Part shown: positions 4,228-39,572 of the stretch, piece by piece | Layout of the letters: each line of letters opens with the position of its first letter | How positions within the stretch are numbered: position 1 is the first letter of the stretch | Assembly (NCBI RefSeq): GCF_000317065.1 | Contig: NC_019701.1 | Coordinates: 744,001-808,000, forward strand | Source of the DNA: Pseudanabaena sp. PCC 7367 | Lineage (GTDB): Bacteria > Cyanobacteriota > Cyanobacteriia > Pseudanabaenales > Pseudanabaenaceae | DNA length: 64,000 bases | Direction: 5' to 3' | Translations under genes and position numbers: made by a program | Notes under the pieces: model-generated | What the model saw: the letters and a program-made list of their open reading frames with translations, nothing else | Told to the model about the DNA's origin: nothing | Databases searched by the model: none

Positions 4228-5779
4228 CGGCAAAGTCTACATAGTTGGTGCAGGCGTAGGCGGGATCGACTACCTCACCGTCAAAGCGCAGCGACTGATC
4301 AGTCAAGCGGAAGCGATCGTCTATGATGCTCTGATCGACGAGTCATTGCTAGCACTAACGCCCGTCAGTTGCGATCGGCACTATGTCGGCAAGCGCGGCG
4401 GTCAACTCAGTATCAAGCAACCAGAAATCAATAATTTACTAGTAAAACTTTGTCAGCAAGGAAAGCAAGTAGTTCGGCTCAAAAGCGGCGATCCCTTCAT
4501 TTTTGGGCGGGCGGTGCCGGAGCTTGAAGCCTTAAGGGCAAATAATTGTGAATATGAGATCGTACCAGGAATTTCCAGTGCGATCGCGGCCTCACTCTTT
4601 TCCGGTATTCCCCTCACCGATGCCAAACTCAGCCCTTGTTTTGCTGTTCTGACTGCCCATGATCTCGAAAATCTACCGTGGCCAGCACTAGCCGAAATCC
4701 CAACCCTGGCGATCCTGATGGGGACCAGGGGCTTACAGGGTGAAAATCCCCCACTTTTAGCCAAGCTAAGGCAGGGCAAATCAGCCGATACACCGATCGC
4801 GGTGGTGCAATGGTGCGGTAGCCATGCCCCAGAGCAACAACAAAAAATTTGGTTAGGTACCCTCACCGACATACAATCGAAGTTACCCGATTACGCCCTT
4901 TCGCCTGCGGTGATCCTGGTGGGGGAAGTGGTCAGGTATCACGATCGATTGAGTTGGTTTAGGCCAGGGCAAATGGAGAGGCATAATAAAGCGCTTACTG
5001 GCATAACTGTGATGGTGACCAGAGCTACAGGGCAATCGAGCCAGTTTAGTCAAATGCTGATAGATACTGGTGCACGGGTGGTGGAAATGCCAACCCTGGC
5101 GATCCTGCCGCCGGATAGTTGGGCAGATTTGGATCGGGCGATCGCAAACCTAGATCGTTACGATTGGTTGATTCTTACCTCTGCCAATGGCGTGTATAGT
5201 TTCTTTGAGCGATTGCACCATGCCCAAAAAGATAGTCGGGCGTTGACCAATGTCAAAGTTGCCGTGGTTGGCAAAAAAACAGCGGTAGCACTCACCCAGA
5301 ATGGCATCATGCCAGATTTTATCCCGCCTAACTATGTGGCAGATGACCTGGCCGCAAATTTCCCTTCGGTCAAAAATTTAAATATCTTGTTCCCCAGGGT
5401 GCAAAGTGGCGGGCGCGAAGTCTTAATTGAAGAATTAACTGCCAAAGGGGCAAAGGTGGATGCGATCGCGGCCTATGAATCGGGTTTACCGCCTGAGCGC
5501 GATCCTCAAGCATTGGCTGCAATTAAGAACGGTAATATAGATGTGATTACCTTTGCCAGTTCTAAAACAGTGCGAAACTTTTGTGAGATCCTGGCTCAGG
5601 AAAGTAACGAATGGCAAAAATGGTTAGCAGGAGTCACGATCGCTTCGATCGGACCCCAAACTTCGGCCACCTGTTATGAATTTCTGGGACGGGTAGAAAT
5701 TGAAGCAATGGAATATACCCTAGATGGCTTGATTGAGGCGATCGCCAATTATTACGAATCGCCCCATACTAATTTCTAG
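4220..5779 (+). CDS. cobA-hemD: Fused uroporphyrinogen-III C-methyltransferase / uroporphyrinogen-III synthase (CobA-HemD)
   Basis: About 519 residues with two enzymes of tetrapyrrole synthesis. Residues 1-250 are the SAM-dependent methyltransferase (start KVYIVGAGVGGIDYL; conserved VVRLKSGDPFIFGR), which makes precorrin-2 toward siroheme and cobalamin. Residues about 260-510 are the HemD fold (ITVMVTRATGQSSQF; late ITFASSKTVRNF), which closes the linear tetrapyrrole to uroporphyrinogen III. The fusion lets one polypeptide make and methylate the ring. ATG at 4220 is preferred over GTG at 4214; either overlaps the preceding nuclease-like gene, implying translational coupling. The stop lies only 11 bases from the convergent VIT/VWA gene. 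Confidence 0.93.
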   Translation: MTSGKVYIVGAGVGGIDYLTVKAQRLISQAEAIVYDALIDESLLALTPVSCDRHYVGKRGGQLSIKQPEINNLLVKLCQQGKQVVRLKSGDPFIFGRAVPELEALRANNCEYEIVPGISSAIAASLFSGIPLTDAKLSPCFAVLTAHDLENLPWPALAEIPTLAILMGTRGLQGENPPLLAKLRQGKSADTPIAVVQWCGSHAPEQQQKIWLGTLTDIQSKLPDYALSPAVILVGEVVRYHDRLSWFRPGQMERHNKALTGITVMVTRATGQSSQFSQMLIDTGARVVEMPTLAILPPDSWADLDRAIANLDRYDWLILTSANGVYSFFERLHHAQKDSRALTNVKVAVVGKKTAVALTQNGIMPDFIPPNYVADDLAANFPSVKNLNILFPRVQSGGREVLIEELTAKGAKVDAIAAYESGLPPERDPQALAAIKNGNIDVITFASSKTVRNFCEILAQESNEWQKWLAGVTIASIGPQTSATCYEFLGRVEIEAMEYTLDGLIEAIANYYESPHTNF

Positions 5780-5790
5780 CTGGCTTCTAA

Positions 5791-8499
5791 CTAGCCATTA
5801 TTCACGCTTAAAGTCAGCCTTGCCTTACCACTAGCTGTGTTAGGTACATTCCAGCGCAAGAGGGCTTGCTTAATTGCATTAATCACTGCCTTATCGGTGA
5901 TTGTCGAACTGCGATCGTCTAGAATAATGCGATCGATCCGGCCATCTTTCAAACTAAACTCTAGCACTACCTTACCCGATGCAGCATTTGGCAAACTCAG
6001 CGCTTGGAGATGTTGTTGGAGCGGATCGCTAACATAAATGCGAAGCTGCTCTGCCTCGGTCATATTGCCAGTAATGCCAGTATTAGCAACCACCTTCACT
6101 CCTTCCAGCTTGACCACACGCACTGGAGAAGCAACTGCGATCTTCGATTCACTGGATTCAGGAATAGCTTCCGTTTGGGGAGAGAGATCGCCATCATTAA
6201 AATCACCCAAGGATTCATTAAGCTGATCTTTGGATGCTCTGGCCAGATCGCCAGACTCAGCGGGCAGGCTGGGCATGTTAACCGCTGGTGGTGGGGTAGT
6301 AGGAACTGGGGCAACGGCTTCCTGGCGTACATTCTTGCGGGATTGATCAGTTCTACCGATCGTGCGGCGACGGGGGGTAGGCGCTGGTTGGGCTGCAACC
6401 GCAAAGTTACTGGTCTGGGCGGCAACATCTTCTTCTGCATCAGTCCCGAATACACCTTCAAAGCTGACACCCTCTGGCAATTCCACCGGAACCTGTACCC
6501 GCTGGGTCGTGCCATCCGGGTTAACCCGCACCTCTTCAGACACCGCCACAAAGGCAGTATATTTTGATAGTAGGTTATAGCTAAGCGCCGTATTTGTCGC
6601 TGATTCCACCAGGGTGGTAGTTTCACCACTAAACATCTGATTCATTAAATCTTTAATCCGAGCCCGACCCCAAAGCTGGGCGATCGCTCCTTTCTCTTGG
6701 TTATTAAACCCAACCGGAATCACTTTTTCATAACGCTTATTTCCCGCCATCATGCCAGTGATTTTGAGATTGCCGCTGATGCGATCTTTCTTGCGGCCAT
6801 ATAGCACTAACGGTTGATTGGCAAATAGATCCGGTGCTGCCTGGGGATAGATTTCTGGCGCAGTTCCTATACCTTGCCATTCCACTTTGATATTAGTTAA
6901 AACCGGATTATTAATCTGCTGGAAGAACTTCTCTACCGCCAAATCCGTATTCTCATCCTGGCGCACTACCTGAGTCGTACCGCGACCGACTTCAGCAAGG
7001 CGATCGAGCAAGTAGCGATTCACTGAGCTACCAACACCAAAGCTATAGAGGCGATTGCCTGGTTTCAGTTTTTCCTGCACCGCCGCCAGAATCTCAGTGT
7101 CATTGCCAATATAACCATCGGTAATCAGGACAACACTGCGCACCCTACCATCTTCGGGACTAGGGAAGCTGAGCACCGCATTAATGCCATTTAATAGTTC
7201 TGTGCCGCCATTGGCATCCAGTTTATTAATATAATTAAGGGCTTTCTGGCGATTGCTGTTGGTGTTCGCTAAAGGAATACTAGAAAGCTGGCGAGTAGTA
7301 TTCGCAAAGTCGATAATTGTGAAGGTGTCATCGGGATTGAGGCCACTCACAAAGCGGCGCATTAGTTCCTTTGATTTAATTAAGGGCTCACCGGATTGGG
7401 AACCAGAGGTATCCATTAAGAACACCACATCCTTTGGCACGATCTCTTCGCTTTTGTAGTCGATCGCGGGGATTAAATAAGTAGCGAAGTGGCCGCCCTG
7501 CTCGGTCTTAGTCGTCAGAACTGTAGTCTGGGGTTGTTCATTGGCAACCTGATAGCGAATGATTAAGTCCTTATTTGGGATCGTATCTTCTGGAGAAAGC
7601 GAAAGGTTCACTACCCTGCCATTCTGGCTCATTTTGATCTGATGGGAAGTAGAGCCCACCTTCTGGATCGCTACCCCGGCATCGATCGACAGCTTAACGT
7701 TAATATCATGCCCCGATCGCATTCCTGGTTTGAGCACGGGCGGCGTAATCCGCGAAGCATCGGGCACCTGGGTGGTATCAGGCAGGGATTGAGTCACACC
7801 ATCGGTTACAGCAGCGGGAGACTTGCCGATCGGATCGCCGGGAATGTAGCGCGGCCCCACCACCATCGGGAATACAAATTCATAGTTCCCTTTTTCAAAT
7901 TCCAGACTGTTGGTGTAATAGATCGTCACGTCGATCTGTTCGCCGGGGCGGATATTCGCCAGCGATTGGGTAAAAATATTAGCGCGTTCTTGCTCTAGTA
8001 ACCCAGCGGTGCGCCCTTCATTTCTGGCCTGTTCGTAGATTTCCTGGGCTTCTTCGCGGCGCTTAATTTCGCCCTTAATAATCCGATCGCCGATCTTAAT
8101 TTCCATATCGTCTACGGCGGCTTCATCGGGCAGCGGGAATACATAAACGGCTTCGAGAGGCATATCGAAGGGATTCTCGAAGGTTTGGGTTACGGCCACC
8201 CTGGCGATGTTACCGTCTACCTGGGCATCGACATCGGTGTGCTTGAGAGGGAAGGCTAGTTGCTGGCCATCAGGATTTTGCGGATCTTGAACGAATAGGC
8301 CGTTAGGTGATTCGGGCTCAGTTGTGGTGGTCAAGGTTGCCCCTGGATTAATTTCAACGCCTGGTTCGATCGTGATTTCGGTGGCGATCGCCGGGTCAAG
8401 CCTGAGCCTACTGGGAATCATGCCGGCTTGGGCAAGGGCAAGGTAGGTGCAGGTGCCGCCGATCAATACGGTGGTGGGAATGGCGATCGCTAGTCTCAT
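5791..8499 (-). CDS. Exported VIT- and VWA-domain protein with TonB-like C-terminal domain
   Basis: 902 residues. A hydrophobic N-terminal segment (about 3-24) is a signal peptide or anchor. The VIT domain (about 80-210) has the family pattern TFENPFDMPLEAVYVFPLP. The VWA domain (about 357-530) has a metal-ion-dependent adhesion site: DTSGS (Asp363), GGTELL and ITDGYIG. This is the inter-alpha-trypsin-inhibitor heavy-chain layout, usually linked to surface or matrix protein interactions. A Pro/Ala/Thr-rich linker leads to a C-terminal 85 residues (VVLEFSLKDGRIDRI, then NAIKQALLRWNVP) that resemble a TonB C-terminal fold. ATG at 8499 follows a weak purine-rich site. It is convergent with cobA-hemD. 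Its ligand is unknown. Confidence 0.85.
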   Translation of the reverse strand: MRLAIAIPTTVLIGGTCTYLALAQAGMIPSRLRLDPAIATEITIEPGVEINPGATLTTTTEPESPNGLFVQDPQNPDGQQLAFPLKHTDVDAQVDGNIARVAVTQTFENPFDMPLEAVYVFPLPDEAAVDDMEIKIGDRIIKGEIKRREEAQEIYEQARNEGRTAGLLEQERANIFTQSLANIRPGEQIDVTIYYTNSLEFEKGNYEFVFPMVVGPRYIPGDPIGKSPAAVTDGVTQSLPDTTQVPDASRITPPVLKPGMRSGHDINVKLSIDAGVAIQKVGSTSHQIKMSQNGRVVNLSLSPEDTIPNKDLIIRYQVANEQPQTTVLTTKTEQGGHFATYLIPAIDYKSEEIVPKDVVFLMDTSGSQSGEPLIKSKELMRRFVSGLNPDDTFTIIDFANTTRQLSSIPLANTNSNRQKALNYINKLDANGGTELLNGINAVLSFPSPEDGRVRSVVLITDGYIGNDTEILAAVQEKLKPGNRLYSFGVGSSVNRYLLDRLAEVGRGTTQVVRQDENTDLAVEKFFQQINNPVLTNIKVEWQGIGTAPEIYPQAAPDLFANQPLVLYGRKKDRISGNLKITGMMAGNKRYEKVIPVGFNNQEKGAIAQLWGRARIKDLMNQMFSGETTTLVESATNTALSYNLLSKYTAFVAVSEEVRVNPDGTTQRVQVPVELPEGVSFEGVFGTDAEEDVAAQTSNFAVAAQPAPTPRRRTIGRTDQSRKNVRQEAVAPVPTTPPPAVNMPSLPAESGDLARASKDQLNESLGDFNDGDLSPQTEAIPESSESKIAVASPVRVVKLEGVKVVANTGITGNMTEAEQLRIYVSDPLQQHLQALSLPNAASGKVVLEFSLKDGRIDRIILDDRSSTITDKAVINAIKQALLRWNVPNTASGKARLTLSVNNG

Positions 8500-8672
8500 G
8501 GTCTTTCTCTGGTTGTGATTAATTAGATGGAATTATTTTTTGTTACTCTAACCATGCCATTATTTTCAGGGGTTGCGATCGCAGTTGCAATTTTAGTAAC
8601 GGCTTTTTTGTTGTTTTATTAGCGATCGATTTGGAGATAAAATCTAAATGGCAAGTTATTGGGGCGATCGAA

Positions 8673-10004
8673 GTGGCAAATGATCAGCAGGTGGCGATCC
8701 TGAAGCGGGGGGTGGAAGCCTGGAATAAGTGGCGAGAACAGCATCCCAAGGTGGCGATCGATTTGTTTGGGATCGACCTGACGGGGATCGATCTGCATGG
8801 TGCAAACCTCAGCGGCGCTGACCTGAGTGGGGAAGAGTTACGGGGTGCTAATTTGCAGGGCGCTGATCTGAGTGGGGCAAATTTGCAAGGTAGTGACTTA
8901 TTTGGAGCCAATTTAAGTAAAGCAAATCTTAGCATTACTGATTTGAGTGGTACTGATCTAATACTGGCGAATCTTAGCTCAGCCTGTGTTATTAGAGCTA
9001 ATTTCACTAATGCGGACTTATCTCAAACTGATTGCACAGATGCTGATTTTTCATATTCTCGCTTTAGTAAGGCATTATTAAGCATGACCGATTTTACTGG
9101 AGCTAACCTTACTCAAGCCAAACTACCCAAGGCAAATCTTATCGGAGCCATTTTTTGCAGAACGAATCTTACACAGGCAAATTTTTTAGAAGCTAAATTA
9201 TTGGAAGCTGACTTCGATGAAGCAAATCTTAAAAATGCTTCTTTTTATATGGCCAGGATAGAAAGAACAAATTTTAAAAGTTCAAATTTGAATGGTGCTT
9301 TTTTAGTAAGAACTGAAGCTATTGAAACTAATTTCAGTAATGCCGAACTTACTGGTGCGTGTATTCATGGGTGGAATATAGATAAATACACTAATTTCAA
9401 TAATTTGAGGTGCAAGTATATATTTAGGGATGTAGAAATACCTGTTGATGATCAAGAAGCTGAATATCTAGATCGCGTACCCGCCACAGGTGAATTTGCA
9501 CCTGGTGATTTCCAAAAACTATTTCAAAAAGCGATCAACACCGTCGATTTGATTTTTCAACATGGGATCGATTGGAAAGCATTTAGCGAATCATTCATAA
9601 AGCTTCAATCGGAAACAGGCGAAGAACTAGCGATCGCGGCGATCGAAACCAGAGATGATGGCAGCTTCGTAATTCGGATCAATGCGCCAGTAGATGCACA
9701 AAAAGCAGAGATTGAGAAATTTATTTACAGCAAATACAAGGCAGCATTAAAGGAGCAGACCGAAAAATATAAGGCTATGCTTGCAGACAAGGATAAGGAA
9801 ATATCTAACAAAGAAGAAATAATCCAGCTATATCGAGAGAAAAGCACCGACTTGAAACAGATCGTATTTAAGCTAGCCGAATCACAGCCTGTTTTCAACA
9901 ATACAAACACCAATATTGGCCGCGACCAGAACACTAATGCCACCAATTCGATCGTCGCTGGCCATGATATCAGCGGGGAAGTAGAGATTCAGAATCAGGA
10001 ATAA
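8673..10004 (+). CDS. Pentapeptide-repeat protein with C-terminal coiled coil
   Basis: About 443 residues from GTG at 8673. This start gives MANDQQVAILKRGVEAWNKWRE, the opening common in cyanobacterial pentapeptide proteins, and GGGG lies upstream; TTG at 8631 would add 14 residues. Residues about 30-230 are A(D/N)Lxx pentapeptides (ANLSGADLSG, ANLQGADLSG), predicted to form a right-handed quadrilateral beta-helix. Repeats become less regular toward the end. Residues about 320-410 form a Lys/Glu-rich coiled coil, and the tail is Asn/Thr-rich (TNTNIGRDQNTN, then VAGHDISGEVEI). The role is unknown; such proteins usually act as binding scaffolds. It is convergent with cheA. Confidence 0.85.
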   Translation: MANDQQVAILKRGVEAWNKWREQHPKVAIDLFGIDLTGIDLHGANLSGADLSGEELRGANLQGADLSGANLQGSDLFGANLSKANLSITDLSGTDLILANLSSACVIRANFTNADLSQTDCTDADFSYSRFSKALLSMTDFTGANLTQAKLPKANLIGAIFCRTNLTQANFLEAKLLEADFDEANLKNASFYMARIERTNFKSSNLNGAFLVRTEAIETNFSNAELTGACIHGWNIDKYTNFNNLRCKYIFRDVEIPVDDQEAEYLDRVPATGEFAPGDFQKLFQKAINTVDLIFQHGIDWKAFSESFIKLQSETGEELAIAAIETRDDGSFVIRINAPVDAQKAEIEKFIYSKYKAALKEQTEKYKAMLADKDKEISNKEEIIQLYREKSTDLKQIVFKLAESQPVFNNTNTNIGRDQNTNATNSIVAGHDISGEVEIQNQE

Positions 10005-32310: not shown

Positions 32311-34188
32311 ATGTCTTTTAAACCATCCGCCTACATCAACAGCGTAGGCAAATTTCTGCCAGGTAACCCGATCGCCAACAGCGAAATGGAAGCCTACCTG
32401 GGCATGATCGGCGATCGCCCCTCCAGGGTCAAAAACCGCATCCTCAAAAGCAACGGCATCCAGAACCGTTACTATGCCCTGGACAAAGCACAAAACAGCA
32501 CTCACCTCAACAGCGAAATGGCCGCCGCCGCGATCCGCGATTCCCTCCAGGCGAGCAACCTGGAACCGAAAGCGATCGATTTACTGGCCTGCGCCACCAC
32601 CTGGCCAGACTTGCTTGTGCCCAGCTTCGCTAGTATGGTGCATGGCGAACTATCCGAGTTTGCGCCCTTAGAAACAATCTCCACCCAGGGGGTCTGCTGT
32701 GCTGGGGTTTCCGCCCTGAAATATGCCGCTAATCAAGTGGAGTTGGGGAATAAACACCATGCGATCGCTGTCGCCTCAGAACTACCATCGCGGTTATTTA
32801 AAGCCTCTCGATTTGAAGCCGAATCACGAATCCAAGCTGGTAAATCATTGCCTTTTGATACAGAATTCCTGCGCTGGATGCTTTCCGATGGTGCTGGCGC
32901 AATGCTGATTCAAGACCAGCCCAATCCAAAGGGACTTAGCTTGAAAATAGAATGGATCGAGTTGATTTCCCATGCCAATGCCTTCCCAGTCTGTATGTAT
33001 GCGGGGGCTTCAGATCAGAATATAGAAAAGACCTGGATGAATTATCCTTCCTATACGGAGGCAGCTAGCCAGGGAGCATTGAATCTGCGCCAGAACATCA
33101 GGCTATTGGAACATGTGGTCAAACTGGGTGTGGAAGGCTGGATTAAGTTAATTAAGGCAGGGCGAGTCCGGCCAGAGGAGATCGATTGGCTTTTGTGTCA
33201 CTATTCTTCGCATTTCTTTCGCAGCCAGATCGTGGAATTGCTGGAGTATGCCGATTGTATGATTCCTGAATCCAGGTGGTTTACTAATCTTTATACAAGG
33301 GGGAATACAGGCTGTGCTGCGATCTACTTGATGATCGAGGAACTATTCAATTCCGGTAAGCTGGAAGCAGGCCAAAAGATTTTCTGCTTTGTGCCCGAAA
33401 GTGGCCGATTCACTACTGCCTACATGATGATGAGCGTGGTGGATGGTAGTTCGCAATCTAGTCAAATAGTAATGAGTAAGCCAACGATCGCCACAACCAC
33501 AGCACCCCAGGAACCGATCGCCAAATCTTCTAATTCTTCTACTTCAAGCCAGCTATTACAGGATTTAGCGCTGGTATGGCTGGAATTCGATCGCCAAATT
33601 CGCTCCGTGCCGATCGTGCGCAAGCTGCATCGCGGTGAATTCACTTTGGAAGACTATAAAGCATTATTGCGAAACTTACGCCCCCAGGTGGTAGAAGGAG
33701 CCAGATGGATCGCCAGAGCTGCGTCGAATATGATTGATTTCCAATTGCGATCGACCTTCATTGGCCATGCCCAGGATGAGCATCGTGATTATCAAATGCT
33801 AGAGCGTAATTATGTGTCTGTGGGTGGTGAATTGAGTGAGATTGCCAATGCCCAGAAGAATATTGGTAGCGAAGCCCTTTCTGGTTTTATCTTTAATCAA
33901 GCATCACAACCCAACCCGATCGACTTGTTGGGCAGCATGTTTATTATTGAGGGATTAGGGAATAAACTGGCGGGGGAATGGGCAGAGGCGATCAAAACTA
34001 CTCTTCTCTTAAGCAATGAGCAGGTTTCGTTTTTGGCCTATCACAGCGCCAATGATGAATCCCATTTAGATAAGCTGAATACTTTGATCAATGCACCCTG
34101 GATGACCGAGGCGATCGCCAGGTCTATTGTCAAAACTGCTAAGGTCACGGCTAGACTATATTTACTACAACTGGAGGAAATTGCCTGA
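32311..34188 (+). CDS. Fusion of a KAS III-like ketosynthase with a heme-oxygenase-like diiron domain
   Basis: 625 residues. Residues about 1-380 follow the KAS III fold: TQGVCCAGVSAL holds the acyl-carrying Cys129 or Cys130, WLLCHYSS has His297 in place of the usual HQAN, and RGNTGCAA supplies Asn332. A Ser/Thr/Ala linker (about 383-413) leads to a heme-oxygenase-like domain (about 415-620) with candidate iron ligands Glu462, His486/His491, Glu547 and the HxxxDxxH triad His578, Asp582, His585. That pattern marks diiron oxidases or oxygenases such as CADD, UndA and SznF. A chain-building domain fused to an oxidative one suggests a lipid or polyketide product. The stop overlaps the next gene's ATG (TGATG). 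Confidence 0.8.
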   Translation: MSFKPSAYINSVGKFLPGNPIANSEMEAYLGMIGDRPSRVKNRILKSNGIQNRYYALDKAQNSTHLNSEMAAAAIRDSLQASNLEPKAIDLLACATTWPDLLVPSFASMVHGELSEFAPLETISTQGVCCAGVSALKYAANQVELGNKHHAIAVASELPSRLFKASRFEAESRIQAGKSLPFDTEFLRWMLSDGAGAMLIQDQPNPKGLSLKIEWIELISHANAFPVCMYAGASDQNIEKTWMNYPSYTEAASQGALNLRQNIRLLEHVVKLGVEGWIKLIKAGRVRPEEIDWLLCHYSSHFFRSQIVELLEYADCMIPESRWFTNLYTRGNTGCAAIYLMIEELFNSGKLEAGQKIFCFVPESGRFTTAYMMMSVVDGSSQSSQIVMSKPTIATTTAPQEPIAKSSNSSTSSQLLQDLALVWLEFDRQIRSVPIVRKLHRGEFTLEDYKALLRNLRPQVVEGARWIARAASNMIDFQLRSTFIGHAQDEHRDYQMLERNYVSVGGELSEIANAQKNIGSEALSGFIFNQASQPNPIDLLGSMFIIEGLGNKLAGEWAEAIKTTLLLSNEQVSFLAYHSANDESHLDKLNTLINAPWMTEAIARSIVKTAKVTARLYLLQLEEIA

Positions 34189-35099
34189 TGACTTCCTTTA
34201 ATACTAACATTACCGAACACCCCAGCCACGATCGCTTGAATCCTGATGCCTGGGAAGCGTTATATCTAGATCAGGCAATCCCGCTGGATATAAATGCTAA
34301 GGCGCTGATGATTAAGGACTTACGCAGTTGGAGTAGGAACTATTTACTGATCCCAATTAAGCTGATCGCCAATGTGCTGCTAGCGCTGATTATGACCTTC
34401 AAGCGATTGCTACCATTTCAATTCAGTGCTTACAAGTTAATGCATCATGCGGCGGCGTTCTTTCTGAAGCATTTTGTCACCCCAGAGGCTTGCTATCTAA
34501 TTGTCAGGCATATCTGTATTGGTTCTAATGTGGTTAATTTCTTGATTGATAATGGCCCCGATCCGAGCATTCCCAGGTCTTCCCTTTATCCTCGCACTGT
34601 TGATGATCTGGCTGAGAATGCCTTTTTGGAGCACGACCTGATTCTCTATAACTTTGTATTTGACTATCATCAAGCCCAGCAAAAAAATCCCAATTGGCTG
34701 AAGCATGTCCACGATCGCGGCATCAACTATGACAGTATTCAACCGGTTGAAGTTGAGGTGGATTTGTCAAAGCGGGGCTGGTTCAAGATTCTGGATTTGG
34801 AATCGGCGATCGAATTGTTCAAAGTTTTTTATTCGCTCTGCCTCACCAGTGATGAGTTTGCCAGAGCAGTGCTGTCTTTACAATTCGATGAAAATTTTGG
34901 TTGTTATGTCAGTGCCATCACTCAGAACTACGACTGGAATCATGTGATCGCTAATCGCCATCCCCTTGCGCCCAACAGCCCTTTTAATGCTGCCCGCGAT
35001 CTGTTTTTGCATGGCATCATTACCGAGGCGTTGTATCGATTCTTAGAGATCCAGAAAGCCATGAGCTTAAGTCCTGCGATCGCAAATAAGCAAGATTAA
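34188..35099 (+). CDS. Protein of unknown function, coupled to the KAS III-diiron fusion
   Basis: 303 residues. The ATG shares one base with the stop of the preceding gene, and GGAGG lies upstream inside that gene, so translation is coupled. A hydrophobic region (about 55-75, LLIPIKLIANVLLALIMTF) may associate with the membrane, followed by an amphipathic stretch rich in His (LMHHAAAFFLKHF, then LIVRHICIGSNVVNFLID). Conserved-looking acidic and His positions (AENAFLEHDLILYNFVFDYHQ) could bind metal or an acyl chain. No known domain was recognised. It ends before a strong terminator, so the two genes form one unit and probably one pathway. Confidence 0.75.
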   Translation: MTSFNTNITEHPSHDRLNPDAWEALYLDQAIPLDINAKALMIKDLRSWSRNYLLIPIKLIANVLLALIMTFKRLLPFQFSAYKLMHHAAAFFLKHFVTPEACYLIVRHICIGSNVVNFLIDNGPDPSIPRSSLYPRTVDDLAENAFLEHDLILYNFVFDYHQAQQKNPNWLKHVHDRGINYDSIQPVEVEVDLSKRGWFKILDLESAIELFKVFYSLCLTSDEFARAVLSLQFDENFGCYVSAITQNYDWNHVIANRHPLAPNSPFNAARDLFLHGIITEALYRFLEIQKAMSLSPAIANKQD

Positions 35100-35138
35100 A
35101 AAATTTCGATCGCAAGCTTGCTTAGAATCATGTACTAT

Positions 35139-35175
35139 ATTCCTATGTATACTTTTAAGGCATAGGAATTTTTTT
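35139..35175 (+). terminator. Terminator of the KAS III-diiron two-gene unit
   Basis: ATTCCTATG (35139-35147) pairs perfectly with CATAGGAAT (35161-35169), followed by a run of T to 35175. It lies 40 bases after the second gene. Confidence 0.85.
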
Positions 35176-35368
35176 GGCAGCAGGTTGATTTGTGGCCTAA
35201 AAGTTCTATCCAGATAGAATTACAGGAATAAAAGGCTAGCCCTTAAAATTAAATCTGTAATTGCATCTACGATCGCCACCAATAAAGTCCATAAAAAAAT
35301 ATTTACAAGGGGTAGTATTTATTTTTGAATAATGTACAATAATAAAAGCGTAAATCAATAAACCGATA

Positions 35369-36001
35369 ATGACTTTGAAAGCAGACCAAATGCGGCTTGA
35401 ATTTCGTCAGATTACGCCTCGTGTATGGGTGACTCTTGGTAGTTCTGGGAATTGGTACACCCTGCGGCTTAAGGATCAAAAAATTAGCTGCAGTTGTCCG
35501 GCCAGTTTGCATGGGAAAACTTGTTATCACGTCAAACAGCTCATTACTTTGCTCAAACAGGATTTGAATGCATGTTTAGTGCCGGAGTCAGATATCAAAA
35601 ATGTTGCGTCAAAATCGATCGGCGTTAATTCTGTTGCTTCTAGACCGAATATATGGAATGTTTCCCATAATTGTCATATGACTGAGCCTGGAAATAGTTA
35701 TGAAAATAGTAAAGACAAGAATAATATAGATCGCTCCGATCACTCCGATCGTCCAGATGAACCAGTTGATCAGAAAAATAGCGATCCAAATAGCAGTCGC
35801 CCAGCCAATCATTTGAACCAGCATCTGCGTAATCGTGATCAACAACCGAACCAAAATAGACAACGCGGCGATCGCTTGACTAGAATCCTGGCGATCGTGG
35901 CTCAGAACCAACCTCAACACCTAGCCTCTGGCAATCAATCTCAAACCCCCCAAGCAATTAGATTCAACCGTGTGGTGCGGAGGAAGTGTCATCCCCCCTA
36001 A
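35369..36001 (+). CDS. SWIM zinc-finger protein with disordered C-terminus
   Basis: 210 residues. The N-terminal 60 residues hold a SWIM-type finger: Cys41-x-Cys43, eight residues, Cys52-x-His54 (SCSCPASLHGKTCYH), preceded by the usual beta strand WYTLRLKDQKI. SWIM fingers bind DNA or partner proteins and occur in Rad51-paralogue partners and some helicases. The remaining 150 residues are Asn, Gln, Asp and Arg rich and probably unfolded, ending in a basic patch (RFNRVVRRK). ATG 35369 is the first start. It heads a run of same-strand genes whose third member resembles Rad52, hinting at a DNA-repair role. Confidence 0.75.
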   Translation: MTLKADQMRLEFRQITPRVWVTLGSSGNWYTLRLKDQKISCSCPASLHGKTCYHVKQLITLLKQDLNACLVPESDIKNVASKSIGVNSVASRPNIWNVSHNCHMTEPGNSYENSKDKNNIDRSDHSDRPDEPVDQKNSDPNSSRPANHLNQHLRNRDQQPNQNRQRGDRLTRILAIVAQNQPQHLASGNQSQTPQAIRFNRVVRRKCHPP

Positions 36002-36032
36002 ATTCCTTGCCAATCATTACCGCTTGAAGCCA

Positions 36033-36347
36033 ATGGAACCCACCAAATATCCCGGTATTGTCAATCGACTACGCCAAAAAATCCTGAAGCTCGATCAATT
36101 AATTCATCAAATCTCTGAGGCTGTAATTGCGGCAATGGCCGATATCGATCGCCAGGTGGCAAAAGACCCCAAGTTGCGTAACGAAGCACAACGTAGTCGG
36201 CGGCGTGCCCAGTTAATGAACAGCGATCGCGGTTATCTGGATGCCGTGGGCGATCTGCGGCGTGCTCTCAAGGCTCAAGCTGAACTAGAAATGGAGCTGG
36301 ATGTGGTGATCAGCCAACTAGAAACAGATCAAGGACAGGTTGCTTGA
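36033..36347 (+). CDS. Small coiled-coil protein of unknown function
   Basis: 104 residues from ATG 36033; starting further upstream would overlap the SWIM gene out of frame. The sequence is almost entirely helical, with a heptad-like pattern (VNRLRQKILKLDQLIHQISEAVIAAMADIDRQV and LDAVGDLRRALKAQAELEMELDVVI separated by an Arg-rich turn). It begins 31 bases after the SWIM gene. It may be an adaptor or oligomerisation partner for its neighbours. No family was recognised. Confidence 0.6.
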   Translation: MEPTKYPGIVNRLRQKILKLDQLIHQISEAVIAAMADIDRQVAKDPKLRNEAQRSRRRAQLMNSDRGYLDAVGDLRRALKAQAELEMELDVVISQLETDQGQVA

Positions 36348-36627
36348 ATGCTTCGCTAAGAGCAAGTTTTGCTAACCTTCTTACTATTTCTATCTCAAGA
36401 GAAGAGGTGAAACAAAATCAAAATAGACACTGCCAAGTGCGGTTAGGCGATCGCCATTCTTTCCAAGCAAATGCCCCAGAGAAATATTCCAGATCAGCAT
36501 TAAATAGCCTTGCCCAAAATGCTGGCAATTATTCTTGTCTCGCTGCCGCTAATTCAAAATATTTAAATCTTACGTTATTTAAATCAATTATTTACTACTG
36601 TCCTAAACTCGCGTAGAGAGAGTCACC

Positions 36628-37455
36628 ATGCAATTTCAACAGGTCATTTCAGAATTGAAGAAACCTTTAAAACCCTTAGTTAGCGATCGAGCAACCATGT
36701 CTCCTGAACCTGTTAATAATTCAAGCCAACTAGCCGAAATGAGTAAAAAAGAGCAATCTAACTGGCAATGGGAAGCAATTTGCGATCGACTAAATCTAGT
36801 TTGCCCCGATTGGCAAGTTAGCTATGCCGATCCGGTATTGGTCTCTGATTACATTACGGTCAGATGTAGATTGACGATCGCTGGAGTAACCAGGGAAGCT
36901 ACGGGCAGCAGTAAAGGTTATCTGCGATTGAGAAACATCAATGAGCAAAGGGGAATCACCCATCAGCTTAATTCGCTTAATACACCAGAACAAGCAATGA
37001 TCAATGCATTTGTGAATGCGGCGGCTCAATTTGGGATTACGGCAACATCTAGCACTTTAGGGCAGCAACGGGGGCAGGCAAATAGGCAGAATGAATTACT
37101 AACCGCGACTCATAAGGAAGTTGCCGCCACGGTCAGGGAATATGGCCGCGATCGCCCACATGTCAGCAAATTAGTTGAACTGCCAATGGGATCGCCAAGA
37201 CAGCAAATGATATCCCCAAAGCAGCAACGGCCCCGATCCTCAAATAAAAAACTAGCCAATCAATCATCCCGAAAATCAACGCGCCAAATCCGCAATTTGA
37301 GCTTGGCTAAGCGCCAGGAAATGCTAGAGATTTCGCAAATGCTGAGGGAGTTGCGACAGAAATCTGGGCAGCCTGCCAAATCAACAATCCAGCGATCGGC
37401 ACTTGGTCGCCTCAAGGTTTCTACCCAGCGACTTTTAAGAAAAGTTTTATTTTAA
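36628..37455 (+). CDS. Putative Rad52-superfamily single-strand annealing protein
   Basis: 275 residues. Residues about 45-137 resemble the Rad52-type annealing core: WEAICDRLN, a Pro-Asp-Trp turn before a strand, ITVRCRLTIAGVTREATG as paired strands, then an Ala-rich helix ending AFVNAAAQFGI, similar to the AF(R/K)AAxxFGIG ending of that fold. The rest is basic, Gln/Arg/Ser-rich and likely disordered (RPRSSNKKL, STRQIRNLSLAKRQ), suitable for binding DNA. The ATG follows AGAGAGAG-type purines. Assignment rests on pattern only; a DNA-binding protein of another fold is possible. Confidence 0.45.
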   Translation: MQFQQVISELKKPLKPLVSDRATMSPEPVNNSSQLAEMSKKEQSNWQWEAICDRLNLVCPDWQVSYADPVLVSDYITVRCRLTIAGVTREATGSSKGYLRLRNINEQRGITHQLNSLNTPEQAMINAFVNAAAQFGITATSSTLGQQRGQANRQNELLTATHKEVAATVREYGRDRPHVSKLVELPMGSPRQQMISPKQQRPRSSNKKLANQSSRKSTRQIRNLSLAKRQEMLEISQMLRELRQKSGQPAKSTIQRSALGRLKVSTQRLLRKVLF

Positions 37456-37511
37456 AAAACTACCTTGAGCCAAATCAAAAATGCCAAAGAGAATAAGGAG
37501 GAGTTTTCCCA

Positions 37512-37628
37512 ATGGGTATGAACTTTATAGCGATGACACCGGAATTATCGGTTGCTGATGTGGTCAAGACCCAACAATATTTCCGGAATGTGATCGATAT
37601 TTATTTTACGGCTCAGATTGGTGATTAA
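37512..37628 (+). CDS. 38-residue protein with a very strong ribosome-binding site
   Basis: The frame runs from ATG 37512 to TAA 37628. AAGGAGG lies at about 37495-37501, a near-perfect Shine-Dalgarno sequence ten bases upstream. The product begins MGMNFIAMTPELSVADVV and ends YFTAQIGD; it has no membrane segment and looks like one amphipathic helix. It sits 56 bases after the Rad52-like gene and ahead of a strong terminator, so it should be the last gene of that transcript. Confidence 0.6.
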   Translation: MGMNFIAMTPELSVADVVKTQQYFRNVIDIYFTAQIGD

Positions 37629-37712
37629 AATATTCCCAAATACCTAATCGTTCCTTGCTCTACCTAGGATCTAGTTATGGAATGGGTTTTACAAGTTTGC
37701 CTCGACCCAAAT

Positions 37713-37750
37713 ACAACCTCCAGTTGATCAAGTCTGGGGGTTGTTTTTTA
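37713..37750 (+). terminator. Strong terminator of the SWIM/Rad52-like gene set
   Basis: ACAACCTCCAG (37713-37723) pairs with CTGGGGGTTGT (37734-37744), an 11-bp stem with one G-U pair and a 10-nt loop, followed by a T-run. Confidence 0.9.
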
Positions 37751-37865
37751 TGTTTGAGCTATGATTGATTACCAGAAATCCAGACAATGAGCTTAACTAA
37801 GTGAACTAATTTCTTTTATAGTTTAGGTAAGACTGTCTAACCGATTAAGATTAAGAGTTCTAGCT

Positions 37866-39572
37866 ATGCATTACGCGATCGACTTTGGCACCAGCAATAC
37901 CGTAGTTGCCAGAATCAACGCTGAAGGAGTTGCCGAGACTATCGCCCTGCCTGGCTTAAGCAGCACGATCGCCAATAACCCGCCCCTAATTCCTAGTTTT
38001 GTATATGTAGAAAATGCCCAGGATGGCAAAGTGCTGGTGGGGCAAGAGGTACGCGATCGCGGCCTTGACTTAAAAGGGAATCAAAAGGAGCCGAGATTTT
38101 TTCATAGTTTTAAGCGGGCGATCGGCGCTAATCTACCTGGGTTTGTGCCGGAATTAGACGAGGTCGAAGTTAGCTTTGAAAGCGTGGGCAATTGGTTCCT
38201 CAAGCGCATTATTGCCCAATTGGAAGAACCAGAATCGATCGTATTTACGGTTCCGGTTGATAGCTTTGAGCCCTATCGCCAATGGCTCAGCGATGTTTCA
38301 GCGGAGCTAGCGGTTAAACAAATTCGGTTGTTAGATGAACCTACGGCAGCGGCTTTGGGTTATGGGTTGGGCAAGAAAGAATCGGAGCAAGAACGTGATT
38401 CTGAGCCTAATACACCTAATCCACTTAATCCACTTAATCCAAACGAGGGGAAAGAGGCAGCGGTATCAATCAGCGATCGCCAGACTATCCTGGTGGTGGA
38501 CTTTGGCGGCGGTACACTCGATCTGGCTCTAGTTAAACTCAACTTGCCGCAATTGCAGGTAGAATCTGAGAATAAGCCCCAAAGTGCTGGACTACTGGGG
38601 TTTTTGCTGAAATGGGGCGATACACCGGTCAAAATAACCCAGAAGCCGCAAACAGCCAGGGTGATCGCCAAGGCAGGGCAAAATCTGGGCGGCATGGACA
38701 TTGATAACTGGCTAGTGGACTATTTCCATCGTCAGCAGGGTTTACCCAAAAATTCGCTGATCTCCCGGTTGGCAGAAAGGGTCAAAATCACACTTTCCAC
38801 CGAGGAATCGGCCAGTGAAGTGTTCTTCGATGATGTGAGCTTCAATAGCTATGAACTTAATCTGGAGCGATCGCAACTTAATCAGGTTTTAGCAGAAAAT
38901 CAATTTTTCGATCGCCTGGATGCTTCTCTCAATCAGATTAAGCAACAAGCCACCAGGCAAGGATTTGATTTGGCGACCGAAATAGAGGCGGTGCTATTAG
39001 TTGGTGGCACAGCCCAGATGCCAGCGGTACGAGATTGGGCGGTCAAGCATTTTTCAGCGGCGCAGGTAAAAGCCCATAAACCATTTGAGGCGATCGCCCA
39101 CGGAGCCCTGGCGCAGGAGTGGCAACTCAAAGACTTTCTCTACCACAGCTACGGAGTACGCTATTGGGATAAACGCCATAAACGCCATGGTTGGCAGCCG
39201 ATCGTGCAGGCGGGGCAAACTTATCCGCTCGAAAAGCCGATCGAATTGGTGCTTGGGGCATCCCGGCCAGAACAACCCAGCATTGAGTTGGTGATTGGTG
39301 AACTGGGCGAAACCGATGTGGAGGTCTATTTTGAGGGCGATCGCCTGGTAACCCGCAACCTCAGCGAGAGTAAACAGGCGGTGCAACCCCTTAACGATCG
39401 AGATGCTGGTAGTCGTAGCATTGCCAACCTAGAGCCACCCGGCAATCCCGGCAGCGATCGGATTAAGGTGCTATTCCAGGTGGACGAGCAACGCACCCTC
39501 AAAATCACAGTCGAAGATTTGCTGACCAATGACCTGTTGGTGGATGAACAAGCGGTGGTACAACTAATCTAG
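37866..39572 (+). CDS. Hsp70-family ATPase (DnaK-like)
   Basis: 568 residues, shorter than DnaK. The actin-fold ATPase shows DFGTSNTVVARI at the start, the connect motif LLDEPTAAALGYG, the phosphate-2 motif VVDFGGGTLDLALV and the adenosine motif VLLVGGTAQMPAV. After residue 410 the substrate-binding part is diverged (VRYWDKRHKRHGWQPIVQAGQTYPLEK, then ELVIGELGETDVEVYF) and lacks the DnaK helical lid. It therefore belongs to the cyanobacterial Hsp70-like group rather than a general chaperone. No DnaJ or GrpE gene is nearby. An unusual Asn-Pro-Leu repeat is inserted near residue 180. Confidence 0.9.
   Translation: MHYAIDFGTSNTVVARINAEGVAETIALPGLSSTIANNPPLIPSFVYVENAQDGKVLVGQEVRDRGLDLKGNQKEPRFFHSFKRAIGANLPGFVPELDEVEVSFESVGNWFLKRIIAQLEEPESIVFTVPVDSFEPYRQWLSDVSAELAVKQIRLLDEPTAAALGYGLGKKESEQERDSEPNTPNPLNPLNPNEGKEAAVSISDRQTILVVDFGGGTLDLALVKLNLPQLQVESENKPQSAGLLGFLLKWGDTPVKITQKPQTARVIAKAGQNLGGMDIDNWLVDYFHRQQGLPKNSLISRLAERVKITLSTEESASEVFFDDVSFNSYELNLERSQLNQVLAENQFFDRLDASLNQIKQQATRQGFDLATEIEAVLLVGGTAQMPAVRDWAVKHFSAAQVKAHKPFEAIAHGALAQEWQLKDFLYHSYGVRYWDKRHKRHGWQPIVQAGQTYPLEKPIELVLGASRPEQPSIELVIGELGETDVEVYFEGDRLVTRNLSESKQAVQPLNDRDAGSRSIANLEPPGNPGSDRIKVLFQVDEQRTLKITVEDLLTNDLLVDEQAVVQLI
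38404..38442 (+). repeat. Nine-base tandem repeat inside the Hsp70-like gene
   Basis: Units of the form CTTAATCCA are repeated about four times (first units diverged), encoding Asn-Pro-Leu repeats inserted in the ATPase domain. The insertion is in frame. Confidence 0.7.

Follow-up and report, generated by a model that had tools for sequence, protein, structure and literature searches.

Genes at the locus

We analysed a window of 64,000 nucleotides (nt) of Pseudanabaena sp. PCC 7367, whose genome comprises 4.89 Mb in 2 contigs. Four open reading frames (ORFs) follow one another on the + strand of this window, as an earlier note on the same DNA had described. They encode a SWIM-type zinc-finger protein of 210 residues (35369..36001; ORF call, Pfam and alignment with relatives), a coiled-coil protein of 104 residues (36033..36347), a protein of 275 residues with a predicted Rad52 fold (36628..37455; tblastn, Pfam matches of homologues, predicted structure and tree), and a 38-residue ORF (37512..37628; ORF list and homologue searches), which has a strong AAGGAGG upstream and whose status as a gene is uncertain. 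A hairpin follows the last of them. The note had proposed that the four genes form a small single-strand annealing module. The new element at this locus is instead a resident clade of predicted Rad52-fold proteins with a rewired DNA-contact helix, to which the 275-residue protein belongs.

A predicted Rad52 fold

A tblastn search with the 275-residue protein returned four plasmid records annotated Rad52/Rad22 (E 1e-7 to 1e-13), from Anabaena, Cylindrospermopsis and Leptolyngbya and of three plasmid types (pANACY.03, pLBA and p-r.curvispora1). These homologues score above the Pfam cut-off for Rad52_Rad22 (PF04098), with 39.8 bits for the one at locus L066. The tblastn matches, a common alignment and a tree connect the protein to the Rad52-type superfamily by sequence continuity. 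Other searches were empty: phmmer of the protein against Protein Data Bank (PDB) sequences gave nothing (best E 0.75), the phage/plasmid-type profile A4 matched no PDB entry at E <= 1, and neither the protein nor its pANACY.03 homologue had a match among the phage records.

An AlphaFold2 model (22 sequences) predicts a confident core, with a predicted local-distance difference test score (pLDDT) mostly >80. The core, residues 42-137 (36751..37038, + strand), has the helix / beta-beta-beta / helix arrangement of the superfamily; pLDDT per ten-residue block ranges from 75 to 97 there, falling to 53-58 in the loop at 101-120, and a poorly predicted tail lowers the whole-chain mean to only 67. In a comparison of structures Mgm101 came first (Z 9.0, root-mean-square deviation (rmsd) 4.3, 122 aligned), followed by RAD52 (Z 8.5, rmsd 5.3, 124 aligned) and phage 80α Sak (Z 8.1, rmsd 3.5, 104 aligned). 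The top 13 rows all belong to the Rad52 superfamily, and the first unrelated rows appear at Z <= 7.8. Foldseek ranked human RAD52 first, at E 5e-4, the only match under E 0.001. For a Pseudanabaena relative, RAD52 and Mgm101 again lead, more weakly than for the PCC 7367 protein, and the core arrangement is correspondingly less clear; families missing from either match list are not thereby excluded. Beta-beta-beta-alpha folds, double-stranded RNA (dsRNA)-binding domains for example, score only modestly lower, so the assignment relies on sequence continuity and fold jointly. On that combined basis the protein is predicted to carry a Rad52-type fold, and the earlier guess, made from a motif pattern, holds for both fold and ancestry.

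A resident clade in Pseudanabaenaceae

Distribution was examined in a genome family that we take to be Pseudanabaenaceae, with its genus g2 taken to be Pseudanabaena. A seven-sequence profile matched 25 of 38 family genomes, among them 22 of the 26 Pseudanabaena genomes. The rest of the family matches are PCC 7367 itself, genome G297 and a broken, weak match in G326; the G297 gene (L032) is of the phage/plasmid type and is surrounded by many small ORFs. Across the phylum, profile A4 found matches in 13 of 386 genomes, scattered and in several cases weak, and the 275-residue protein as query matched in 5 of 292. A one-genome-per-species collection covering 84,980 species yielded 26 loci, 17 of which were assigned to the resident clade.

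A tree built from 43 rows and 109 columns separates the PCC 7367 protein and 17 Pseudanabaena proteins from 25 phage/plasmid-type rows with branch support of 100/99 (L003, L005, L050, L051, L076, L093, L099, L105, L110 and L114-L121 were left out). The PCC 7367 protein forms a long lone branch (0.56), and its gene is an intact long frame. Pairwise ratios of nonsynonymous to synonymous substitution (dN/dS) among the 17 Pseudanabaena genes have a median of 0.14 and a maximum of 0.24, with 118 of 136 pairs measurable; these genes are thus under purifying selection.

Two further observations concern the distribution of the gene. Pseudanabaena biceps O153 has two resident-clade copies, L056 and L069, and L056, one of the 17 resident rows, lies on a contig titled plasmid. 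The contig of L077, although binned as a Woesearchaeota archaeon, bears a rad52 gene of cyanobacterial type that includes a masked stretch; the contig is possibly misbinned.

The DNA-contact helix and the basic tail

Residues 120-136 (36985..37035, + strand) form a predicted helix that matches RAD52 alpha-3 in model and alignment. The register against RAD52 is assumed here from the motif and from the RAD52 sequence, rather than taken from a printed structural alignment. At the position of RAD52 K152, all 25 phage/plasmid-type proteins carry Lys and all 17 Pseudanabaena proteins carry Cys; the PCC 7367 protein has Val (V129), hence no basic residue at this inner-strand position. Position 133 is E in all 25 phage/plasmid-type proteins and uncharged in all 18 clade proteins (A133 in PCC 7367), and a third charged helix position is D/E in the 25 and N in the 18 (N126). 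V129, N130 and A133 of PCC 7367 thus occupy the places of K, N and E in the phage/plasmid-type proteins. The clade has thus replaced the equivalents of K152 and R156, while Asn at the R153 position (N130) is common to every row. Among the loci outside the tree, L003, L005 and L076 have Lys at the key position and L050 has Arg.

PMC9772228 and PMC3823998 describe T148, K152, R153 and R156 of the RAD52 helix as touching the inner strand. Loss of the K152 equivalent makes annealing by the PCC 7367 protein less likely. The net charge of the tail is +21 in PCC 7367, compared with a median of +9 in Pseudanabaena (+6 to +11) and of +3 in the phage/plasmid type (-2 to +7), and this basic tail may compensate for the lost helix lysine.

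The plasmid Rad52/Rad22 proteins (pANACY.03, pLBA, p-r.curvispora1) share the core of the 275-residue protein and differ in motifs. Their third helix bears K-N-x-x-E, and they have an LPG-type motif ahead of W as well as YLDDQ, YLDEQ or YIDDQ; the resident clade has V/C-N-A-A-x on the helix and lacks both other motifs. To the human RAD52 N-terminal domain and yeast Mgm101 the likeness is in the predicted fold, whereas identity is only 12-18% and equivalents of K152 and R156 are missing. The predicted fold also resembles that of phage 80α Sak, which is a phage recombination gene, unlike the PCC 7367 gene, a host gene that has no recognised phage neighbours.

Upstream genes in Pseudanabaena

At 11 of the 17 Pseudanabaena loci (L054, L056-L060, L062, L064, L065, L069 and L070), the gene immediately preceding the rad52-like gene, on its strand and across a gap of 93-276 nt, encodes an S24 peptidase (UmuD-like; Pfam). 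DUF790, a family that includes Bax1-type nucleases, is the upstream neighbour at three others, and neither occurs at the last three, one of which has only 498 nt upstream. The loci with DUF790 upstream form a second Pseudanabaena group (L052, L053 and L055, and with them L037, L041, L042, L043, L045 and L046). The UmuD-like neighbour hints at a damage-response context.

The protein might alternatively be a Rad52 fold repurposed away from annealing, as a structural or regulatory nucleic-acid-binding protein, for example one acting with the product of the UmuD-type SOS protease gene in lesion bypass. The frequent UmuD-like neighbour would fit such a role, as would the finding that, of 24 tabulated positions, those fixed in all 25 phage/plasmid-type rows yet different throughout the clade fall on the DNA-contacting helix; the relative's fold matches also lie close to the dsRNA-binding-domain background. 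Set against this are the strongly basic tail, the absence of an adjoining UmuD-like gene in PCC 7367, and the Asn at the R153 position in every row, where LiRecT likewise has Asn (N211; PMC9772228). Redbeta mutants at the corresponding helix positions, moreover, keep some annealing (PMC3823998). We consider a repurposed fold rather unlikely.

The SWIM-like protein

The first of the four proteins has a conserved part of about residues 1-75 followed by a 135-residue low-complexity tail rich in N, S, R and Q. Its residues 41-54 (35489..35530, + strand) carry the zinc-binding motif CxCx8CxH, CSCPASLHGKTCYH, in agreement with the CxCx(n)CxH pattern of SWIM (PF04434), and align with the fingers of relatives in phages and in genome G296. 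The earlier note called this a clean SWIM finger. The motif and the alignment bear that out, whereas the Pfam score of 15.7 bits falls short of the 19.6 cut-off, and we call the protein SWIM-like for this reason; judged on its sequence, the finger is convincing through the alignment rather than through the curated score.

The subfamily has the signature W, G.tGN.Y, C.C.A...g..CYH. Within the family it occurs in PCC 7367 and G296 only (2 of 38 genomes), and G296, where it is a finger-only frame of about 70 residues, has no Rad52 match. That frame (L049 about 5048-5257) lies about 1.1 kb from L049:2649-3923, which by eye resembles a UmuC/Y-family polymerase. In the phylum, one doubtful match besides PCC 7367 was found in 386 genomes, and a profile search gave PCC 7367 and three weak matches. 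A Nodularia phage relative scores 21.0 bits against Pfam SWIM and is 37.7% identical over residues 13-81 of the PCC 7367 protein (E 4e-3); no annealing gene is present among its annotated neighbours. Weak matches to Sinorhizobium phage and pNOB8 SWIM proteins were dropped.

Members of this subfamily come mostly from phages and IMG/VR, and in cells they are sporadic. Together with the low-complexity tail, and with a review that calls bacterial Rad52-type genes sporadic and phage-flanked (PMC8987985), such a distribution would suit a reading of the SWIM, coiled-coil and Rad52-like genes as drifting, functionless leftovers of an integrated mobile element. That reading is improbable given that most genomes of the sister genus have the Rad52-like gene and purifying selection acts on it there, that its frame is intact in PCC 7367, and that the flanking families are not those of phages.

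SWIM genes beside Rad52-type genes

The four genes do not stay together elsewhere. At the 17 Pseudanabaena loci, none of the 163 ORFs neighbouring the Rad52-like gene has a SWIM pattern, no coiled-coil gene adjoins it as judged by the coiled-coil profile, and the 38-residue ORF occurs in no other family genome. The SWIM, coiled-coil and 38-residue neighbours therefore do not travel with the Rad52-like gene, and the proposed annealing module fails as a conserved unit. SWIM-pattern genes were likewise missing beside Rad52 at the four plasmid loci, and among 11 other cellular phage-type loci one has such a gene seven genes off.

Mobile elements gave a different picture. The 13 Rad52-type loci from IMG/VR have 198 neighbour ORFs, of which exactly two show the SWIM pattern; each is the gene immediately upstream of the Rad52-type gene and on its strand. 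One, in L091 (7006-7863), ends 62 nt before it, and the same protein in L078 scores 16.2 bits against Pfam SWIM, below the cut-off. The other, in L106 (837-1487), ends 50 nt before it and has no Pfam SWIM match; in alignment it is 50% identical to the SWIM protein of L127 and aligns with the PCC 7367 finger. Random placement among the neighbours at these two loci would put both at the -1 position with a chance of 1/18 x 1/12 = 0.005, a post hoc figure from a small sample. Once the first IMG/VR case had shown a spacing of 4, the spacing allowed in the motif was extended to 2-20; under the original 5-25, only L106 of the two is left. The 13 loci are what remains of 16 when L093, L099 and L105 are set aside as presumed copies of L092, L098 and L104, with flanks partly checked; the flanks of L093 differ from those of L092.

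A broad SWIM scan of viral contigs gave 13 loci, mostly with unrelated SWIM-like proteins, and no Rad52-profile match in the 12 examined. The thirteenth, L148, is on the same contig as L127, which itself lacks such a match. The SWIM gene at L127:5938-6477 belongs to the PCC 7367 subfamily, and a gene for an AAA_24 / Sak4-like annealing-type ATPase lies 1.9 kb further on, on the opposite strand (8372-9256), so that SWIM there shares a region with a different annealing family.

The adjacency in two IMG/VR contigs gives modest independent support to the link between SWIM proteins and recombination drawn in the earlier note, and suggests that the PCC 7367 pairing may be borrowed from mobile elements. 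In our reading, SWIM fingers recur in the recombination regions of mobile elements with a relation to cyanobacteria, and PCC 7367 probably acquired a SWIM gene next to the Rad52-fold gene that it already had. That the two are functional partners is plausible. The stronger claim, of a genuine and conserved four-gene module for single-strand annealing in which the SWIM protein is an essential partner, could draw on the shared strand, the single terminator, spacing that is tight save for one gap, and the two IMG/VR contigs, which hold the only SWIM-pattern ORFs among the 198 neighbours. We consider it very unlikely: SWIM is unmatched in 36 of 38 family genomes although 22 Pseudanabaena genomes keep the Rad52-like gene, G296 has the SWIM relative without a Rad52 match, coiled-coil relatives do not lie beside Rad52 in the loci examined, the 38-residue ORF is unique in the family, and the one gap measures 280 nt.

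The coiled-coil protein and the 38-residue ORF

The coiled-coil ORF opens at GTG 35970, and its homologues align from ATG 36033, which gives 104 residues. The protein is a member of a distinct family of cyanobacterial proteins, about 124 residues long, with homologues in 12 of 292 genomes including PCC 7367. It was considered as a mark of an annealing module (a gp157-type coil) and rejected, its homologues and one IMG/VR relative not lying beside Rad52-type genes; the homologue loci are short, about 3.3 kb. In L083, L084, L086, L088, L089 and L090, family members ending in RELVG plus one residue adjoin a small protein that starts with MTKHY or MMKHY, and several of these loci also have an adjoining acidic protein of 120-145 residues. 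Together these genes form a conserved cyanobacterial cluster.

The 38-residue ORF has no credible homologue in the Pfam, NCBIfam, PHROG and genome searches. A 24-residue match (E 0.085), lying in a dehydrogenase-like frame, raised a glyoxalase-like/dehydrogenase remnant as a candidate and was judged to be chance.

Transcript signals and flanking genes

The hairpin at 37713..37750 (+ strand) folds into an 11-pair stem with a 10-nt loop, its arms at 37713-37723 and 37734-37744, followed by T's. Hairpin and T tract are real, and a terminator here is plausible; its description as very strong was somewhat overstated. The folding energy of the stretch is -21 kcal/mol; shuffled versions give -13.75 (z = -2.24), and 8 of 200 are equally stable. 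It is not listed by the terminator pattern scan, whose rule covers loops of 3-8 nt. Promoter and terminator pattern counts across 35000-38000 are at chance level. The four genes are at most a putative transcription unit, and the 280-nt spacer before the Rad52-like gene (36348..36627, + strand; ORF bounds and pattern scan) leaves a separate promoter for that gene possible.

The genes around the locus, at 32311-39572, have Pfam matches to ketoacyl-synthase, DUF6999 and Hsp70-like families, not to phage families. A 625-residue protein (32311-35099) combines a ketoacyl-ACP-synthase III part with a weak, sub-cut-off C-terminal haem-oxygenase-like match, and its gene shares one base with the DUF6999 gene. 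According to PMC8093625, genes for single-strand annealing proteins (SSAPs) typically neighbour ssb, nuclease, Gam-like or gp157-like genes. The locus is unlike such phage operons: among its eight ORFs, Pfam found no ssb, nuclease, Gam-like or gp157-like gene adjoining the Rad52-like gene.

Discussion

We read the 275-residue protein, with a probability of roughly 0.6, as a divergent, resident (domesticated) Rad52-fold protein of Pseudanabaenaceae that derives from phage/plasmid-type annealing proteins. Its homology, predicted fold and clade are established, as is purifying selection in the Pseudanabaena branch.

Several observations weigh against this reading. The protein has no direct match in Pfam, NCBIfam or PHROG; PF04098 does not match it at E <= 1, nor anything else in the PCC 7367 genome, and we accordingly name it a divergent Rad52-fold homologue, not a PF04098 member. 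The model of the Pseudanabaena relative reaches a pLDDT of 60, with RAD52 first at Z 7.9 and a dsRNA-binding domain at 7.0, and Foldseek gave it no match <0.001. The PCC 7367 protein is the sole one of its genus here, so that dN/dS covers the Pseudanabaena branch only. Its genome has a UmuD-like gene about 440 kb from the Rad52-like gene, and Pfam found no recombination genes around the locus (32311-39572). LexA-type palindromes, looked for with a set of patterns as a sign of SOS control, gave one loose match in the 11 regions upstream of the UmuD-like genes and none upstream of the 17 rad52-like genes or at three sites in PCC 7367. Finally, the loss of the helix lysine could mean a loss of annealing.

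If the protein is a resident annealing-type factor, it would oligomerise, and its retained beta-hairpin groove would bind DNA that is single-stranded or partly annealed, the basic C-terminal tail standing in for the lost helix lysine. It might then aid RecA-independent annealing, gap repair or lesion tolerance. More tentatively, the SWIM protein may have come from a recombination module of mobile elements and act as a partner in DNA binding or recruitment, the coiled-coil protein may be an accessory, and the 38-residue ORF may be incidental.

A bolder history can be proposed, though we hold it to be speculative and unlikely. An ancestor of the Pseudanabaenaceae would have captured a phage annealing protein once; its inner-strand helix would have been rewired and the protein kept as a host DNA-damage-tolerance factor, by a UmuD-type gene in most Pseudanabaena. 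The PCC 7367 lineage would later have re-acquired a SWIM partner from mobile elements, giving a bacterial SWIM/Rad52-fold pair like the eukaryotic pairs of SWIM protein and recombinase mediator. Shu2 and SWS1 are SWIM proteins. The eukaryotic Shu complex likewise sets a SWIM protein beside a homologous-recombination protein, but its SWIM partner is a Rad51 paralogue, whereas the neighbour here is Rad52-fold and the pairing is one of genes alone; no Shu-type set is found at the locus.

RAD52-family genes are mentioned in cyanobacterial genomic islands (PMC2784084) and a Rad52 tree has cyanobacteria coloured (PMC6410040). In a structural survey of the superfamily (PMC11783212), 'cyanobacter' is absent from the main text. 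The literature covered, with subscription papers outside its scope, gave nothing on Rad52 with Pseudanabaena, on Rad52 and single-strand annealing in cyanobacterial genomes or on a cyanobacterial link between SWIM and Rad52. The one paper that came up for SWIM and Rad52 in phage annealing does not connect the two.

Bacterial Rad52-type genes have been described as sporadic phage-flanked captures (PMC8987985); here such a gene is kept by nearly a whole genus and a sister lineage. The clade with the changed helix offers a natural experiment on what annealing requires of the Rad52 fold and on how a phage annealase turns into a host protein. With SWIM-like and Rad52-type genes adjacent in two mobile-element contigs and in PCC 7367, the idea that a bacterial annealase has a SWIM partner can be tested directly.

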